Below, one piece after another: positions 3,523-10,683 of a DNA stretch of 64,000 nucleotides (positions are counted from its first letter, which is position 1; each line of letters opens with the position of its first letter). The notes under the pieces were generated by a model. That model was not told where the DNA came from, did no database searches, and was given only the letters and a program-made list of their open reading frames with translations. A program made the position numbers and the translations under genes. This DNA comes from Desulfocapsaceae bacterium (GTDB lineage Bacteria > Desulfobacterota > Desulfobulbia > Desulfobulbales > Desulfocapsaceae), in the NCBI GenBank assembly GCA_031292275.1, contig JARLHL010000039.1:1-64000 (forward strand), in the 5' to 3' direction.

Positions 3523-4443
3523 TTACCCGTGGAGCTTGTTGGGGCTCATAATGTTGTCTTCCATATGCTTGAGTTCGTCGATACCGGAGATGATGATGGC
3601 GGGATCCGGGAGCAACTCCTCGTCTGGAAGCTTGTCTTCATAGGTCATGTTTGAAAGAAGAAACTTCATGCAGTTGATCCGTGCGAGCTTCTTGTCGTCC
3701 GAGCGGATGATGGTCCACGGCGCCAGGGTGCGGTTGGTTTCGGACAGCATCTGGAATTTCCTCACCGAATACTGATCCCAGTATTTCTGGGCCAGATTGT
3801 CGATGGGGGAGAGCTTGTATTGCTTGAGGAGGTCTGTCTTGCGGGAGTCAAACCGCTCCTTCTGGATGTTTTTAGATACGGAAAAATAAAATTTAAAGAG
3901 TTTTATCCCGTCCTTGACCAGCAGTTCCTCCACCATGGGGACATCTTTCAGAAATCGTTTGTTCTGCTCATCGGTGCAGAATCCCATGATCGGTTCCACC
4001 ATGGCCCGGTTGTACCAACTGCGGTCAAAAAAGACCAGTTCTCCCGCTGACGGCAGGCGCGAGGTGTAGCGTTGAAAATACCATTGGGTCTGCTCCGTCT
4101 CGTTGGGCTTGGTCAGGGCCACTACCCGGGCGGTCCTCGGGTTCAGGTGCTCGATGAACCGTTTGATGGTGCCGCCCTTGCCGGCTGCGTCCCGTCCCTC
4201 GAAGATCGCCACTACCCTCTGGCCGCTTTCCTTCATATGGCTTTGAAGCTTCATCAGCTCGATCTGGAGCTTTTTCAATTCCATTTCATAGGAGAGTTGG
4301 GTGGTTTTCACCCAGATGGCGGTCTTGTCTTTGCCTTTTTTCTGATCGACATTGGCCAGGGCGGTTCCCTCTGCCAGGATGATTGCTTCGGTCTTTTTTG
4401 CCGCCTTATCCTCTTTCTGCTTTTTGCTCATGATGGTCACCAT
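3523..4443 (-). CDS. ppk2: Polyphosphate kinase 2 family protein (copy A)
   Basis: 306 residues. PPK2 enzymes move phosphate between polyphosphate and nucleotides in the cytoplasm, usually making ATP or GTP from polyphosphate. Walker A is FEGRDAAGKGGTIKR (residues ~81-95). The family signature FFDRSWYNRAMVEPIMGFC lies at ~138-157 and the lid-region arginine motif KERFDSRKTDLLKQYKLS at ~205-222. Length fits a single-domain class I PPK2. A Lys-rich 45-residue N-terminal extension precedes the core. A second start four codons in (MSKKQK) is equally possible, as neither has a clear ribosome binding site. It follows a second ppk2 by 35 nt on the same strand. PPK2 is certain; nucleotide preference is not readable from sequence. 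Confidence 0.93.
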   Translation of the reverse strand: MVTIMSKKQKEDKAAKKTEAIILAEGTALANVDQKKGKDKTAIWVKTTQLSYEMELKKLQIELMKLQSHMKESGQRVVAIFEGRDAAGKGGTIKRFIEHLNPRTARVVALTKPNETEQTQWYFQRYTSRLPSAGELVFFDRSWYNRAMVEPIMGFCTDEQNKRFLKDVPMVEELLVKDGIKLFKFYFSVSKNIQKERFDSRKTDLLKQYKLSPIDNLAQKYWDQYSVRKFQMLSETNRTLAPWTIIRSDDKKLARINCMKFLLSNMTYEDKLPDEELLPDPAIIISGIDELKHMEDNIMSPNKLHG

Positions 4444-4478: not shown

Positions 4479-5447
4479 TTAACGCAGAGGGGCACCGAAT
4501 TTTTTTTGTTCCCGCTTCATATTCTTGAGTTCAACGTCGCCCGGAATGACAACCTCCGGATCCATTGCAAAATTGAGGGACTTGCTGCGGCCCACATATT
4601 TAATAGAACTCAGGATGAGCTTCATAGTTTCCCGTCGGGCCAGGTGCTTGTTGTCCGAGCGGATGATCCACCATTTGGACTTTTCGGTATGGGTCTTTTC
4701 CAGCAGGACCTTTTTCTTCTCGGTGAATTCGTTCCAGAGCTCCTGGGCCTGCAGGTCCACCTCGCTGAGTTTCCACTGACGCAGGGGGTCGTTCCTTCTT
4801 CTTTCGAATCGCCGTGCCTGCTCCTCCTTGCTGACGGAAAAATAGAGCTTTAAAAGGATGGTCCTGCCGGCGTCAAGGATGAAATTCTCCTCATAAGAGG
4901 TGACTTTTCTTAAAAAACGGAGGTATTGGGCCTTGCTGCAGAAGCCCATCACCGGTTCAACCATGGCCCGGTTGTACCAACTGCGGTCAAAAAGGACTAT
5001 CTCGCCTGCATGGGGAAACTGTTCAATATACCGTTTCATGTGCAGCTCTGTCTTCTGGTACTCGTTGGGCTTGCCCAGGGCAGTGACGCGATAGCGTTTC
5101 CCGTTCATATAGCGGGTCAGCCGGCGGATAGTCCCGCCCTTGCCTGAGGCATCCCGGCCGTCGAAGAGGATGATCATCTTCTTGCCGGTGCGTTCCAGGT
5201 GGTTTTGCATCTTGATGAGCTCCGCCTGGTACGGCTTCAACTCCTCTGCGTTGTAATAGTCCAAGAGACAGGATTTGATGATCTGCTCTTTATCTTCTGA
5301 TTTCAATACACTGGCTATCTTTCGGCTCTGCTCGTTCGGGGGGCCCGCCGCGATGTCCTTCTCAAGATTCTTCACCAGATCCTTAATGGTGGCGGTCGTC
5401 CCCCTCCGATGTCGGGGCGGGGATTTTTTGTTGCCTGGGTCGCTCAT
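4479..5447 (-). CDS. ppk2: Polyphosphate kinase 2 family protein (copy B)
   Basis: 322 residues from MSDPGNKK; the ATG at 5447 has AGGAG 6 nt upstream, so the longer frame to 5492 is rejected. Walker A FDGRDASGKGGTIRR lies at ~96-110, LFDRSWYNRAMVEPVMGFC at ~152-170, and the lid motif ARRFERRRNDPLRQWKLS follows. It differs from its neighbour throughout, so this is an old paralogue pair rather than a recent duplication. The ~75-residue N-terminal extension (TIKDLVKNLEKDIAAG) is charged and predicted helical, a possible oligomerisation or partner region. First gene of the two-gene ppk2 transcript. In other bacteria PPK2 paralogues divide ADP- and AMP-phosphorylating roles; whether these do is unknown. 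Confidence 0.93.
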   Translation of the reverse strand: MSDPGNKKSPPRHRRGTTATIKDLVKNLEKDIAAGPPNEQSRKIASVLKSEDKEQIIKSCLLDYYNAEELKPYQAELIKMQNHLERTGKKMIILFDGRDASGKGGTIRRLTRYMNGKRYRVTALGKPNEYQKTELHMKRYIEQFPHAGEIVLFDRSWYNRAMVEPVMGFCSKAQYLRFLRKVTSYEENFILDAGRTILLKLYFSVSKEEQARRFERRRNDPLRQWKLSEVDLQAQELWNEFTEKKKVLLEKTHTEKSKWWIIRSDNKHLARRETMKLILSSIKYVGRSKSLNFAMDPEVVIPGDVELKNMKREQKKFGAPLR

Positions 5448-5605
5448 ACGATCTCCTGATTTGAAAAAAACCGGTCCTTCGGACCTGTACAATTATTATT
5501 TTCAATGTAATTTTGTGATTAGCCGATAAAAAAAGCAATTGATATTTTTCGGATAATGAATTTTCTGACAAAAAAAAACGGCTGATGGCGACGGTAGGGT
5601 GCAGG

Positions 5606-6331
5606 CTAATTGAGTTTTCTGCCCAGAACGAACATCCGGCCGTATATCTCCGGGAGTAAATTTTTTTTTAAACCGTCAACGACCTCCTGAACAGGATAGG
5701 CGATGCGGAAATGCCGGATCCGGATGGTCTCCGCAGTTAGGGCGAGGACAGCGCAGGAAGCGCTGGGGTCGTTGTCGAACATCCGGCCTACGCTGCCGGG
5801 ATTGATAAAATGGGTGGTTCCCGCAGTTCGGTGAAAGGGGCTGTGGGAATGGCCTGTTATGATTATTCGGGCTGGTGTCTGCGCCGCGAGTTCGGAGAGT
5901 CTTTCCGCAGAGGTTTCCGGAAAGAGGAACTCGTCATCGTCCAAAGGACTGCCATGGAACACCCCGATCTTCAGGGCCGGATTGCCGTCTGGATCAAGAA
6001 GAATTGAGGTGGGCAGGGAGCGGAGATAGATCGCATTCTCTGCCAGCATCTGTTCCGCAGTCCAGGTGTACATAATCCGTTTTTCATGCTTGGACGGTTT
6101 TTTTAAGGGTTTTCCCGCCAGGAGTTTCAGGACCTTTTTGTCGGTATTGCCGAGTATTGACAAGGACTGTCGCGCCCGCAGCCAGTTTATGGTCTCGTTG
6201 GGGAAGGGGCCGTAGACGGTTGAATCACCGGCATTGATGACGGCATCGAAGACTTCTCCTTCAAAATATCGTTCCACGGCGGCCAGGGCCGGGAAATTAG
6301 CGTGTATATCTGATACCAGCAGGATCTTCAT
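5606..6331 (-). CDS. Calcineurin-like metallophosphoesterase (YfcE/MJ0936 type)
   Basis: 241 residues from MKILLVSDIHAN; the longer frame from 6370 adds an unconserved tail. The metal-binding motifs appear in order: DIHAN (~8-12), GDSTVYGP (~35-42), GNTDKK (~60), FHGSPLDDD (~125) and GHSHSPFHRT (~160), then NPGSVG. These are the hallmarks of small two-metal phosphodiesterases/phosphatases of the YfcE group, which hydrolyse diester or phosphate-mononucleotide substrates in the cytoplasm. The true substrate is unknown. It is transcribed in the same direction as the ppk2 pair and lies 158 nt upstream of it, so it could belong to a phosphate-metabolism neighbourhood, though a shared transcript is not shown. 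Confidence 0.85.
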   Translation of the reverse strand: MKILLVSDIHANFPALAAVERYFEGEVFDAVINAGDSTVYGPFPNETINWLRARQSLSILGNTDKKVLKLLAGKPLKKPSKHEKRIMYTWTAEQMLAENAIYLRSLPTSILLDPDGNPALKIGVFHGSPLDDDEFLFPETSAERLSELAAQTPARIIITGHSHSPFHRTAGTTHFINPGSVGRMFDNDPSASCAVLALTAETIRIRHFRIAYPVQEVVDGLKKNLLPEIYGRMFVLGRKLN

Positions 6332-6669
6332 CTGTCTTGCCGTCTCCCTCTGTTGGTTGGGGCTGCGCAATTTCAGTCGGCTGTATCGGGGAGGAGGCGG
6401 AAAAGCGCTCTGCCTGCGATTGATCCAACCAGACTATGTATACAATAAATGGAAGTAATATTCTACAGATTGAGCTATTTTTTGTAGCATATTGAAACCT
6501 CCAGGTGGTAGAGTAAGTGTGGTGGTTTCTCGGGAGCGAGCGGAGGGGTTCTGCTGCCAGCGGTTACGTTTTACCCGGATCTTCGCAGCGCGAAAGGTTG
6601 CCGGGGGAACCCCAGGTAAGCGGTTTTGTCAGGTCTATGTTTTTCAGTTGAACAGGGTAGGATGTAAGA
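6332..6669. other. Divergent intergenic region, nothing recognised
   Basis: 338 bases between the divergently transcribed phosphoesterase and argJ genes. It must hold both promoters, but I see no convincing -35/-10 pair, operator, terminator or small gene here. Confidence 0.4.
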
Positions 6670-7854
6670 ATGATAATAAAAGGATTTTCGGCATCAGCGG
6701 TCCCGGCGGGTATTAAATACCCCGGCCGGTTGGATCTCGGGCTGATATGCAGTACCGCCCCGGCCGTTACCGCCGGTGTTTTTACGAAGAGTCTGGTCAA
6801 GGCGGCTCCTGTCGTTTTGGATATGGAGCGGTTGAAGCAGGGCCGGGCCCAGGCTATCCTGGTGAACAGCGGCTGTGCCAATGCGTGCACGGGCGAGCAG
6901 GGCATGGAGGCGGCCAGGGCGACCAGCCGTCTTGCCGCTCTGGCCCTGGGGATCCCTGAGGATATGGTCCAAGTCGCCTCCACCGGAGTCATAGGCGCCC
7001 CGCTCAATGTGGCTGCCTTCGAGGCGGCGATGGATTCGCTGGTCGGCGGGCTTGCCCCGGAGAATTTTGAAAAGGTTGCTCAGGCCATCATGACCACCGA
7101 TACGGTGATGAAGACCGCTTACCGCACCATCGTCATCGGCGGCAGGGAGATCAACTTCATGGGGATGGCCAAGGGAGCGGGGATGATCATGCCGAATATG
7201 GCAACAATGCTCGCCTTTATCCTCACCGATGCCCAGATAGGCTTTCCCGAATTGAATGCATGTCTGAAGGCAGGCGTGGCCCGGACCTTCAACCGTATCA
7301 CCATCGACGGTGATACCAGCACCAATGACATGGTCCTGGTGATGGCCAATGGCGCGGCGGGAAATAAATGGATTGATGACGAGGCGCCAGCGGATCAGCA
7401 GCTCTTCCGGGCAACCCTGGAGGATGTGATGCGGGAGCTGGCTCTGAAAATCGTGGCCGACGGCGAAGGCGCTACAAAGTGCATCACCATCCGTGTCTGC
7501 GGGGCTCGGGAGGCCGAAGAGGCCGAGCAGATGGCCAGAACCGTTGCTAATTCCAATCTGGTGAAAACGGCCTTTTTCGGCGAAGATGCCAACTGGGGCC
7601 GGATTATCGCCGCCATGGGGCGTTGCGGTGTACGCTTTCATCCCGAACAGGTTGATATCGCCTTTGGCGATGTGCAGATTGTAAGAAACGGTATAAGCCT
7701 GGGGTCTGACGCCGAGGAGGCGGCCACCGGGGTCTTGAAGCAGAAGGACATTACCGTCACCATCGACCTCAAGGACGGTAATGCTGCAGAAGAGATATAT
7801 ACCTGCGATTTTTCCATCGATTATGTAAAGATAAATGCCGATTACAGGACCTGA
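6670..7854 (+). CDS. argJ: Bifunctional glutamate N-acetyltransferase / amino-acid acetyltransferase (ornithine acetyltransferase)
   Basis: 394 residues, the usual length. ArgJ transfers acetyl from N-acetylornithine to glutamate in the cyclic arginine pathway; bifunctional forms also use acetyl-CoA. The self-cleavage site is intact: [16 protein letters not shown] with Thr179 as the nucleophile that becomes the N-terminus of the beta chain. [13 protein letters not shown] (~66-78) and STGVIGAPL (~104-112) form the oxyanion-hole region, and [16 protein letters not shown] lies near the C-terminus. It is followed after only 12 nt by the CHAD gene, so these probably share a transcript despite having no obvious functional link. 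Confidence 0.97.
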
Positions 7855-7866
7855 TGCCATTCTCTG

Positions 7867-9378
7867 ATGAAATCCGGATATCGTACGTTTACCATAGCCG
7901 GCCCTGAAGGCGTAGAACGGTTGCTCCGGAAAATACGCGGGCTCTATTCCTTGCGGGAAGAGACTGCCGACGATATAGACGAGCAGTATCTGGATACCTT
8001 TGATGGGCGACTGTCCAGCAGAAGATTAGCCCTCAGGCAGACGGAAAGGCGATTTGTGCTGGCCGCCTTTTCGGGGACTCCTTCCGAGGAAACTGAAGGG
8101 CCGCAGAAACCGAGAATCTTCTGGCAGGACTTCCCGGAAGGGAAGGTGAAGGACATGCTGGCGCCCATTTCCGGAGTTCGGGCCCTGTGTCCCCTGTTCA
8201 GGGTGGTCGGTCGGAGACGGCACTTCCGGGTGTGTAACCGGGACGAGAAGGTTGTCCTGCGTCTGCAGCTGGAAACGGGAGACCTCTATGTCGGAGAGGA
8301 AAAGCGGGAGGCCTTCGCTCCCCGCCTCCATTTAGAGGGAATGCGTGGATATCATAAACAATTTCAGCGCGTTTCTGAAGTTCTAGGGGAAAATGACTGT
8401 CAGAATCTGGAGCCTGGTCAGACCCCCGTGGATTTGTTTTTCAGTCAGCTGCAGATTCGGCCTGATGAAAACAAAATTCGGTTATGTTTGGGGAAAGACC
8501 AGACTGCCAGCCAGGCGATAAGTCTCATCGGACAGGGACTTCTGGCGGGAATGAAGAGAAATCTGCCCGGGGTACTAGAGGATATTGATTCGGAATTCCT
8601 CCACGATTTCAGGGTTGCAATTCGCCGGACACGGGCGCTGCTCTCTCAGTTTAAACAGGAGATTCCTCCCGGTCAGGCGGGAATCTTCCAGGATGAATTC
8701 CGGTGGCTGGGCTCGGTTGCGGGGCCGGTACGGGATCTTGATGTATGCCTGCAGAAGGAGGCGATCTACCGGGGACTGCTGCCGGATGATATGCATGCGG
8801 GGCTCTCTGGATTTATGGAGAAAATTGCTGAATGGCGGGAGAGGCAGGCGGTGATCATGCGCGATCACCTCCAGTCGGCGAGGGCGGCGGCCCTGTTCGC
8901 CAACTGGTCCGATTTCCTTAGCGCCCTGCCCTCTAAAATCCAGATGCCACAGGGGCAGATCCCCTGCCGGAAGGCGGCCAGGAAAGTCGTGCGGCGGTGT
9001 TTCCTGCGGCTGCTCAGGGATGCCAGGAGGACCATCCGGGGAGATATGCAGGACGTATCCATTCACAAGCTGCGAATCCAGGCCAAAAAATTCCGGTATA
9101 TGGCCGAATTCTTCCGCGGTTTTTTTCCTGCACCCGACATGGACGCCCTGGTCAGCGACCTGCGGGGACTGCAGGATGATCTTGGCGATTTCAATGACCT
9201 GGCGGTGCAGATCCGAAGATTTCAGGAATATGGAACAGCCTTGTCCCTGGACCGGATTGCCGGGGAGACCCTGGATGCGCTGCTAGTACGTCTCGAGGTC
9301 GAAAAAAAACGGCTGCTGAAGAAATGCCTGAAGCGATGTATGCAGTTTATGAAACAAGATCGAACAGGCCTGTTTTGA
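7867..9378 (+). CDS. CHAD domain protein with CYTH-like N-terminal region
   Basis: 503 residues. The N-terminal ~200 residues resemble a divergent CYTH (triphosphate tunnel) domain (FTIAGPEGVERLLRKI, DEQYLDTFDGRLSSRRLALRQ). From ~235 the CHAD helical bundle begins: LHDFRVAIRRTRALLSQF and, near 400, HKLRIQAKKFRYMAEFF, with the basic His/Arg/Lys faces that bind polyphosphate in this family. CHAD proteins associate with polyphosphate granules. Strong context support comes from two ppk2 genes 3.5 kb away and from the following ParA and SixA genes. Spacing is 12 nt after argJ and 58 nt before the ParA gene. Structural or granule-targeting role is inferred; an inorganic triphosphatase activity would need the CYTH ExExK motif, which I cannot place with confidence. 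Confidence 0.88.
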   Translation: MKSGYRTFTIAGPEGVERLLRKIRGLYSLREETADDIDEQYLDTFDGRLSSRRLALRQTERRFVLAAFSGTPSEETEGPQKPRIFWQDFPEGKVKDMLAPISGVRALCPLFRVVGRRRHFRVCNRDEKVVLRLQLETGDLYVGEEKREAFAPRLHLEGMRGYHKQFQRVSEVLGENDCQNLEPGQTPVDLFFSQLQIRPDENKIRLCLGKDQTASQAISLIGQGLLAGMKRNLPGVLEDIDSEFLHDFRVAIRRTRALLSQFKQEIPPGQAGIFQDEFRWLGSVAGPVRDLDVCLQKEAIYRGLLPDDMHAGLSGFMEKIAEWRERQAVIMRDHLQSARAAALFANWSDFLSALPSKIQMPQGQIPCRKAARKVVRRCFLRLLRDARRTIRGDMQDVSIHKLRIQAKKFRYMAEFFRGFFPAPDMDALVSDLRGLQDDLGDFNDLAVQIRRFQEYGTALSLDRIAGETLDALLVRLEVEKKRLLKKCLKRCMQFMKQDRTGLF

Positions 9379-9436
9379 TGACATTTCAATATATAGCGGA
9401 TGATTGGGTGGTGCATATGCCGGATCTGGTCTCAGG

Positions 9437-10174
9437 ATGGATATAATCGCCATTTATAGTAACAAAGGCGGCGTCGGCAAGACCGCCGCTGCCGTCAACC
9501 TGGCCTATGAGGCATCCCGAAGCGGGATGGCTGTCCTGCTCTGCGACATGGATTCGCAGGGAGCGGCCTCGTATTATTTTCGTGTGCGGCCGAAAAAAAA
9601 ATTCAGTGATAAAAAATTTCTTCAGGGTGATATAAACGACTTTATCAGGGGGACGGATTTTGACGGTCTCGATCTGCTCCCCGCTCTTTTTTCTTTCCGT
9701 CATCTGGATCTCAGGCTGGATAAAATGGAGAAGAGGAAGAACGGCTCGGTCTTTGATACGGTCTTTAAGACCATTGCAGGCGAGTACGACCTGGTAATCC
9801 TCGACTGTCCCCCCAACCCGACGCTCCTGACCGAGCACATCGTCCGGACTGCGGATATCCTGGTGACGCCGGTTATACCGACTACCTTATCCATACTGGC
9901 CCTGCAGCAGCTCTTGAAACTGACCGTTGAGCTGAAGATCGGCCACAGAAAGATCAAAGCCTTTTTTTCCATGGTGGAGAGAAGGAAAAATCTGCATTCG
10001 GCGACCATTGAGCAGTATAAAAAGTACCCTGTTTTTATGAAGACGGAGATTCCTTTTCTGGCGGAAGTCGAAAAAATGGGGATTAACAGGCAACCGGTGG
10101 GGGCGGCGGCAAGAAATTCGGCCTCTGCTCTTGCCTATGAGAGGCTTTGGCAGGAAATCTGGCAGAGGAGCTGA
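9437..10174 (+). CDS. ParA/MinD-like ATPase in the polyphosphate neighbourhood
   Basis: 245 residues from MDIIAIYSNKGGVGKT; the upstream in-frame start at 9404 would add a non-family tail. Deviant Walker A KGGVGKTAAAVNL carries the signature lysine (~10), A' LLCDMDSQGAAS is at ~40, and Walker B LVILDCPPNPT at ~120. ParA ATPases position DNA or cellular cargo by dimerising on nucleoid DNA. There is no parB and no parS-like repeat nearby, and its neighbours are CHAD (upstream) and SixA (TTG six bases downstream). A cargo-positioning role of the McdA type, here for polyphosphate granules, is a plausible inference but is not demonstrated by the sequence. Confidence 0.85.
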   Translation: MDIIAIYSNKGGVGKTAAAVNLAYEASRSGMAVLLCDMDSQGAASYYFRVRPKKKFSDKKFLQGDINDFIRGTDFDGLDLLPALFSFRHLDLRLDKMEKRKNGSVFDTVFKTIAGEYDLVILDCPPNPTLLTEHIVRTADILVTPVIPTTLSILALQQLLKLTVELKIGHRKIKAFFSMVERRKNLHSATIEQYKKYPVFMKTEIPFLAEVEKMGINRQPVGAAARNSASALAYERLWQEIWQRS

Positions 10175-10179
10175 GCACA

Positions 10180-10683
10180 TTGAAGCGACTATTTCTTATC
10201 CGGCATGCAAAATCGAGTTGGTCCAATTTGAAGATAACCGATTTTGACAGGCCCTTGAACAAGCGGGGGAAGCAGGAGGCGCCTCTTATGGCCCAGAGGC
10301 TGGCAAAACAGGAGGTCTGTCCCGACGCCCTGATCTCCAGCCCGGCAAAACGGGCCAAGGCCACAGCGGAGATTGTTGCCAGGAGCGTGAAGTATCCGGT
10401 AAAGCAGATTTACTACCTTGATTCGGTCTACACTTCGGAAACCAAAGACCTGCTGCGGGTCCTGCAGAAAATCGATGACCGGATTGAGACTGCCTTTGTG
10501 GTGGGGCACAACTATGCGATCACCGATCTGGCAGTGATGCTCACCAGCGTCTATATTGCCAAGATTCCCACCTGCGGCGTTGTGGCCATGGATCTGGCCG
10601 TGGGAAAATGGGCTGAGACAGGGGCTGGAAAAGGGGGCCTGCTCTTTTTCGACTTTCCAGGAAAGCATGAAGTGGAGAAATGA
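10180..10683 (+). CDS. sixA: SixA-type phosphohistidine phosphatase
   Basis: 167 residues from a TTG start at 10180 (LKRLFLIRHAKSSW); GAGGAG 9 nt upstream overlaps the end of the ParA gene, so translation is likely coupled. An in-frame TTG at 10147 also exists but lies inside the ParA coding sequence. The catalytic RHG-type motif is LIRHAKSSW. ISSPAKRAKATAE supplies the second arginine, and VVGHNYAITDLA the second histidine. SixA removes phosphate from phosphohistidine in Hpt or PTS proteins. SixA genes often accompany CHAD genes, where the true substrate is less clear and may be a small phosphorylated molecule. Confidence 0.9.
   Translation: MKRLFLIRHAKSSWSNLKITDFDRPLNKRGKQEAPLMAQRLAKQEVCPDALISSPAKRAKATAEIVARSVKYPVKQIYYLDSVYTSETKDLLRVLQKIDDRIETAFVVGHNYAITDLAVMLTSVYIAKIPTCGVVAMDLAVGKWAETGAGKGGLLFFDFPGKHEVEK

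Follow-up and report, generated by a model that had tools for sequence, protein, structure and literature searches.

A ParA-type ATPase encoded beside a CHAD protein: a candidate organiser of polyphosphate granules

What does a ParA-type ATPase act on when no ParB gene adjoins its own? The question is raised by a gene on the forward strand at 9437..10174 of a 64,000-nucleotide stretch of DNA from a Desulfocapsaceae bacterium; the whole stretch is called the window here. In ParA and McdA systems, the ATPase covers the nucleoid and is released where a partner fixed to the cargo stimulates hydrolysis; the cargo spreads evenly and is inherited. Few inclusions are commoner in bacteria than polyphosphate granules, and a number of species space them out or segregate them. 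We know of no ATPase of the ParA kind for these granules.

The initial annotation had guessed that the gene product positions polyphosphate granules. The first part of this proposal stands: a tie between the ParA clade and polyphosphate is strongly supported by genome comparison, in the form of CHAD-parA gene pairs, linkage to the polyphosphate kinases PPK1 and PPK2, and co-occurrence. The second part, active positioning, is something we infer; the protein probably positions or organises polyphosphate storage granules.

The gene encodes a ParA-type ATPase of 245 amino acids, placed in the polyphosphate-linked clade by Pfam, motifs, clade profile and tree. Its ATG start lies at 9437 and its stop at 10174. 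An alternative in-frame TTG at 9404 would make the protein 256 amino acids long; the ATG is taken as the start because the conserved N-terminus M-(K)-I-I-A aligns there. Pfam matches are found to AAA_31 (1.1e-31) and CbiA (1.7e-15).

As first annotated, the ATPase is complete. The deviant Walker A motif KGGVGKT, with its signature lysine (residues 10-16; 9464..9484, + strand), is invariant in 40 relatives. Walker A' DMDSQG (residues 37-42, D37-x-D39-x-Q41-G42; 9545..9562, +) and Walker B DLVILDCPP (residues 118-126, containing D123-C-P-P; 9788..9814, +) are recognised from the sequence and from the alignment of relatives, in which neither the Walker A columns nor those of the catalytic aspartates vary. 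The protein thus carries the motifs by which the ParA/MinD (deviant Walker A) family is defined, namely KGGxGK[T/S] with the signature lysine, Walker A' and Walker B. By sequence it is a ParA/MinD-family ATPase, neither Soj nor McdA, with predicted ATPase activity. No extra domain is present. Inspection by eye reveals no C-terminal membrane-targeting amphipathic helix of the MinD or FlhG type, and the protein stops at the last conserved helix.

Evidence that the protein belongs to a discrete clade is provided by profiles and by phylogeny. Among 93 genomes of the same family (Desulfocapsaceae), 79 encode a close homologue at 44-76% identity, and the others reach about 30% at most. A profile built from 20 clade members (A1) was run on a phylum-wide sample of 395 genomes, where it gave at least 256 bits for the ParA proteins of 22 genomes and at most 130 bits for any other protein; Soj and FlhG of the same genomes score far lower. 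Outside the phylum, where the survey covered a plasmid collection, the edge of the clade is blurrier, with sphingomonad plasmid proteins at 188-209 bits. A single-protein pattern scan of genome contigs returned one distant Soj-like protein only.

Two stretches are characteristic of the clade. The first is the basic stretch FFSMVERRKNLH (residues 176-187; 9962..9997, +), in which K184 and H187 are nearly or fully invariant. The second is EKMGINRQP (residues 212-220; 10070..10096, +), where Soj proteins differ and which comes after the PRNVR motif of Soj. Basic residues are conserved in the clade at positions 172, 182-184, 187, 213 and 218. In the alignment, the arginines of the Soj PRNVR stretch (207 and 210) are replaced in the clade, so that nucleoid binding by this ParA is not assured.

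The simplest explanation of such a gene would be an ordinary ParA for chromosome or plasmid partition that lies beside a CHAD gene by chance. Membership of the ParA superfamily is in keeping with this, as is the presence of some relatives on plasmids. Against it, the initial annotation had already remarked that no ParB gene or parS-like repeats lie nearby, and both observations are borne out. No parS-like site with up to three mismatches occurs in the 64-kb window (0.13 expected), and no ParB gene adjoins the ParA gene. The only ParB_N match of the genome is found on another contig (C45), directly beside a separate Soj. An FlhG gene adjoins FlhF just beyond the end of the window. With a Soj-ParB pair and FlhG accounted for elsewhere, the protein is a third ParA-family member with a place of its own.

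Phylogeny, which had been proposed as a check, points the same way. In a tree of 86 proteins, a single branch with support 99 separates the ParA clade from Soj (a quick tree whose only support values are SH-aLRT, without bootstrap), and a topology that places the window protein inside Soj is rejected (p-AU 0.014). The linkage to CHAD is moreover seen in ten families and a second phylum, in differing surroundings. The chromosomal partition reading was rejected on the missing parS-like site, the ParB beside the other Soj and the p-AU value; partition in general, with CHAD as a chance neighbour, is very improbable.

In the window, the genes argJ, CHAD, parA and sixA follow one another on the + strand, separated by 12, 58 and about 5 bases. 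The CHAD protein (7867..9378; 503 amino acids, CHAD domain at residues 224-452, Pfam 3.5e-51) is the probable cargo-side partner. A SixA-like histidine phosphatase (10180..10683) matches Pfam SixA at 2.9e-14, below the curated cut-off, and lies behind ParA in many relatives, though not in every one. The view that CHAD and SixA are the only close partners proved too narrow: argJ, a gene of arginine biosynthesis (6670..7854), ends 12 bases before CHAD, and two PPK2 genes lie 4-6 kb from parA. These PPK2 genes form a tandem pair on the - strand (4479..5492, by Pfam and neighbourhood; 3523..4443, by neighbourhood and genome search) and are the only ones of the genome. No PPK1 was found in the same genome, where polyphosphate synthesis would therefore rest on PPK2. 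A calcineurin-like phosphoesterase identified by Pfam (5606..6370, -) is a neighbour conserved in the family.

SixA was considered as an essential component and rejected, since many pairs have no SixA gene beside them and, at two loci (L155 and L061), SixA adjoins CHAD genes without ParA. In a related genome, a protein of many MORN-like repeats (L042, 1151-2938) neighbours the same gene cluster.

CHAD domains bind polyphosphate, and in CtCHAD of Chlorobium mutations of His253, Arg256, Arg260, Arg296, Arg418 and Tyr419 lower binding (PMC6537752). CtCHAD is also the solved structure closest to the window CHAD (3e0s/6qv7, 6e-32). Alignment to the structure equates H246, R249 and R253 (8602..8625, +) with His253, Arg256 and Arg260, R289 (8731..8733, +) with Arg296, and R410/Y411 (9094..9099, +) with Arg418/Tyr419. 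All six predicted polyphosphate-contacting residues are thus kept, and they vary little or not at all across 51 relatives. The N-terminal part of about 200 residues (7867-8470) has no Pfam match. It contains a conserved DTFDWRL-like motif and is possibly, judging from its sequence, a degenerate CYTH domain.

Known partners of cargo-positioning ATPases use a charged, disordered N-terminus (PMC10241942). A basic disordered tail of this kind was not seen at the N-terminus of 51 CHAD proteins, and the site of interaction with ParA, if there is one, therefore lies elsewhere. AlphaFold2 models made without an alignment had a mean pLDDT of 40 for ParA alone and 38 for CHAD alone and were discarded.

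The pair itself is widely conserved. In 70 of the 88 family loci, CHAD is the gene directly upstream of ParA and shares its strand, and nine other families of the phylum (ten in all) have the pair too, with different surroundings. Within the family sample, both genes are present in 69 genomes and both are missing from 13; 10 have ParA alone, and 1 has CHAD alone, cut off by a contig end. Elsewhere in the phylum, CHAD occurs in 16 of 18 genomes with ParA and in 28 of 373 others. The p-values for co-occurrence are 5e-9 and 5e-15, respectively, and overstate independence, the genomes being related; more weight is carried by the return of the pair in dissimilar surroundings.

The pair is also carried by plasmids of Paracoccus (Alphaproteobacteria), with a ParA about 45% identical and with CYTH and NUDIX genes behind. 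The ATPase thus has a dedicated, conserved partner gene in ten families and Paracoccus, though not in every genome. An apparent natural fusion of CHAD and ParA (L113, 1965-4160, - strand, one frame of 731 amino acids) was rejected, as both domains are truncated and a frameshift in an additional copy of the pair is the probable cause.

CHAD could, alternatively, be linked to ParA through shared expression in phosphate starvation only, with ParA serving another cargo or regulatory task. A Pst-PhoU-PhoB cluster lies in front of the Paracoccus marcusii copy of the pair, and argJ lies in the same apparent transcript as the window parA. Furthermore, no CHAD gene was seen in the gene neighbourhoods of distant ParA relatives from Marinobacter and Halomonas (Gammaproteobacteria), Pontibacter (Bacteroidota) and sphingomonads, and two of these relatives, on Marinobacter and Halomonas plasmids (L220, 6001-6747, and L219, 101-835), are near pyruvate kinase genes. 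The Marinobacter plasmid relative is also near a PHB gene (phbB).

What speaks against such an arrangement is the constancy of the pair while argJ, SixA, MFS and Pst genes come and go. For instance, argJ shares the apparent transcript in Desulfocapsaceae and in family f2 and is absent from the other contexts of the pair. In addition, stop and start codons overlap at 39 of 60 CHAD/parA junctions, and at 25 of these the overlap is exactly 4 bases. Such overlaps suggest that translation is coupled; the junction in the window, with its gap of 58 bases, is not one of the 39. Linkage through shared expression only is accordingly held to be quite improbable.

The polyphosphate kinases extend the association beyond CHAD. 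PPK1 is found within 5 kb of ParA at 16 loci of the family. These loci come from a second branch of the family (genera g9, g10 and g15), in which PPK1 is divergent beside the CHAD-ParA pair. In four further groups (f89, f37, f98 and f101), PPK1, CHAD and ParA all point the same way. At two loci, ParA comes immediately after PPK1 and CHAD is missing (L178, 2994-6023, and L179, 3989-6876). The PPK1 of these two loci is a second copy, which shares about 40% identity with the PPK1 linked to CHAD and is paired with its own copy of ParA. At another locus (L166), ParA adjoins Ppx/GppA, again without CHAD. With PPK1, PPK2, Ppx/GppA and CHAD around one ParA clade, several kinds of polyphosphate gene recur there.

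The ten family genomes with ParA but without any CHAD match comprise nine from genus g3 and one from g16. In most of the nine, parA has kept its place, with argJ on one side and an MFS or aminotransferase gene on the other. CHAD is sited elsewhere in the genome in three further g3 genomes (G005, G020 and G024) and in G022. Within one genus (L162-L172), CHAD has been lost or moved from the interval between argJ and parA, with parA in place.

These arrangements bear on a different role within the polyphosphate system, in which ParA would not position granules but recruit or switch a polyphosphate kinase, or limit the number and size of granules. There are models for this among its relatives: FleN/FlhG-type proteins control how many flagella are made, and BcsQ is a companion of cellulose synthase. 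The PPK1-ParA pairs and the Ppx neighbour without CHAD fit such a role, as does the linkage to PPK2 that persists where CHAD is lost. It is at odds, however, with the retention of all Soj-like ATPase motifs in a protein that has no membrane or extra domain, and the solved structures nearest to it are Soj/ParA proteins (8ray, 6iub, 1wcv) rather than FleN. Regulation of the kinase is considered unlikely, and it remains a serious rival because of the CHAD-less genomes, the missing basic tail of CHAD and the replaced PRNVR arginines.

We consider it rather likely that the protein is instead a dedicated ParA ATPase of the polyphosphate-granule system that positions granules in the manner of McdA/McdB. 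This is supported, at the level of sequence and genome comparison, by intact motifs, a discrete clade, an overlapping gene pair, kinase linkage and the binding residues of CHAD. The events that we infer are contact of ParA with CHAD, stimulation of the ATPase, binding to DNA and movement of granules. ATP-bound ParA dimers would coat the nucleoid through basic C-terminal residues, and the CHAD protein, by its conserved phosphate-binding surface, would coat polyphosphate granules. Where the two proteins meet, ATP hydrolysis would be stimulated and ParA cleared locally. Granules would then track gradients of ParA, stay apart and be shared between daughter cells, as carboxysomes are with McdA/McdB.

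On a broader scale, PPK, CHAD and ParA may form a widespread, ATP-driven system for the positioning and inheritance of granules in two phyla, with ParA acting on granules of an inorganic polymer; in branches without CHAD, ParA may use its basic C-terminal face to contact polyphosphate kinase or else polyphosphate directly. To this wider proposal we would give an even chance. If it is true, a mineral-like storage polymer joins the known cargos of ParA ATPases.

No paper joining a ParA ATPase with CHAD or polyphosphate granules, and no published ParA-CHAD-PPK system, was found in the open-access literature, nor, in the literature searched, any instance of a CHAD protein tied to a ParA ATPase. 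A 2025 review names AlgP as the sole granule placement factor and lists the ATP dependence of placement as unknown (PMC13052382). The conserved ppk-CHAD-parA unit, found on Paracoccus plasmids too, supplies a named candidate placement factor and makes the question directly testable.

Several known systems can be compared with the one proposed here. Soj/ParA proteins share the fold family, the deviant Walker A with its signature lysine, and Walker A' and B. The window protein differs from them in its separate clade, in its E-x-M-G-x-x-R-x-P signature and replaced PRNVR stretch, and in having no ParB partner. The chemotaxis-array ATPases ParC and PpfA are likewise ParA relatives that place protein cargo, whereas the conserved neighbourhood of the window ParA is without a chemotaxis gene. 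CHAD phosins and CtCHAD (PMC6537752) have in common with the window CHAD the six mutation-tested polyphosphate residues and the clustering with polyphosphate enzymes. AlgP of Pseudomonas aeruginosa, which acts in polyphosphate granule spacing (PMC9239181), performs the very task proposed for the window ParA, to distribute polyphosphate granules evenly over the nucleoid, but is a histone H1-like DNA-binding protein without an ATPase.

Finally, McdA/McdB offers the closest parallel in organisation, although orthology with McdA is not borne out: the window ParA is remote from the solved McdA (6noo, 43 bits, against 113 bits for the Soj-like 8ray), its putative adaptor CHAD is not McdB-like and has no basic N-terminal tail, and its conserved neighbourhood, made up of CHAD, PPK1/PPK2, SixA and argJ, contains no McdB or carboxysome genes. 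What the two systems share is the gene of a ParA-type ATPase beside that of a cargo-side protein, the absence of ParB and parS, and, as proposed here, a storage or metabolic body as cargo.
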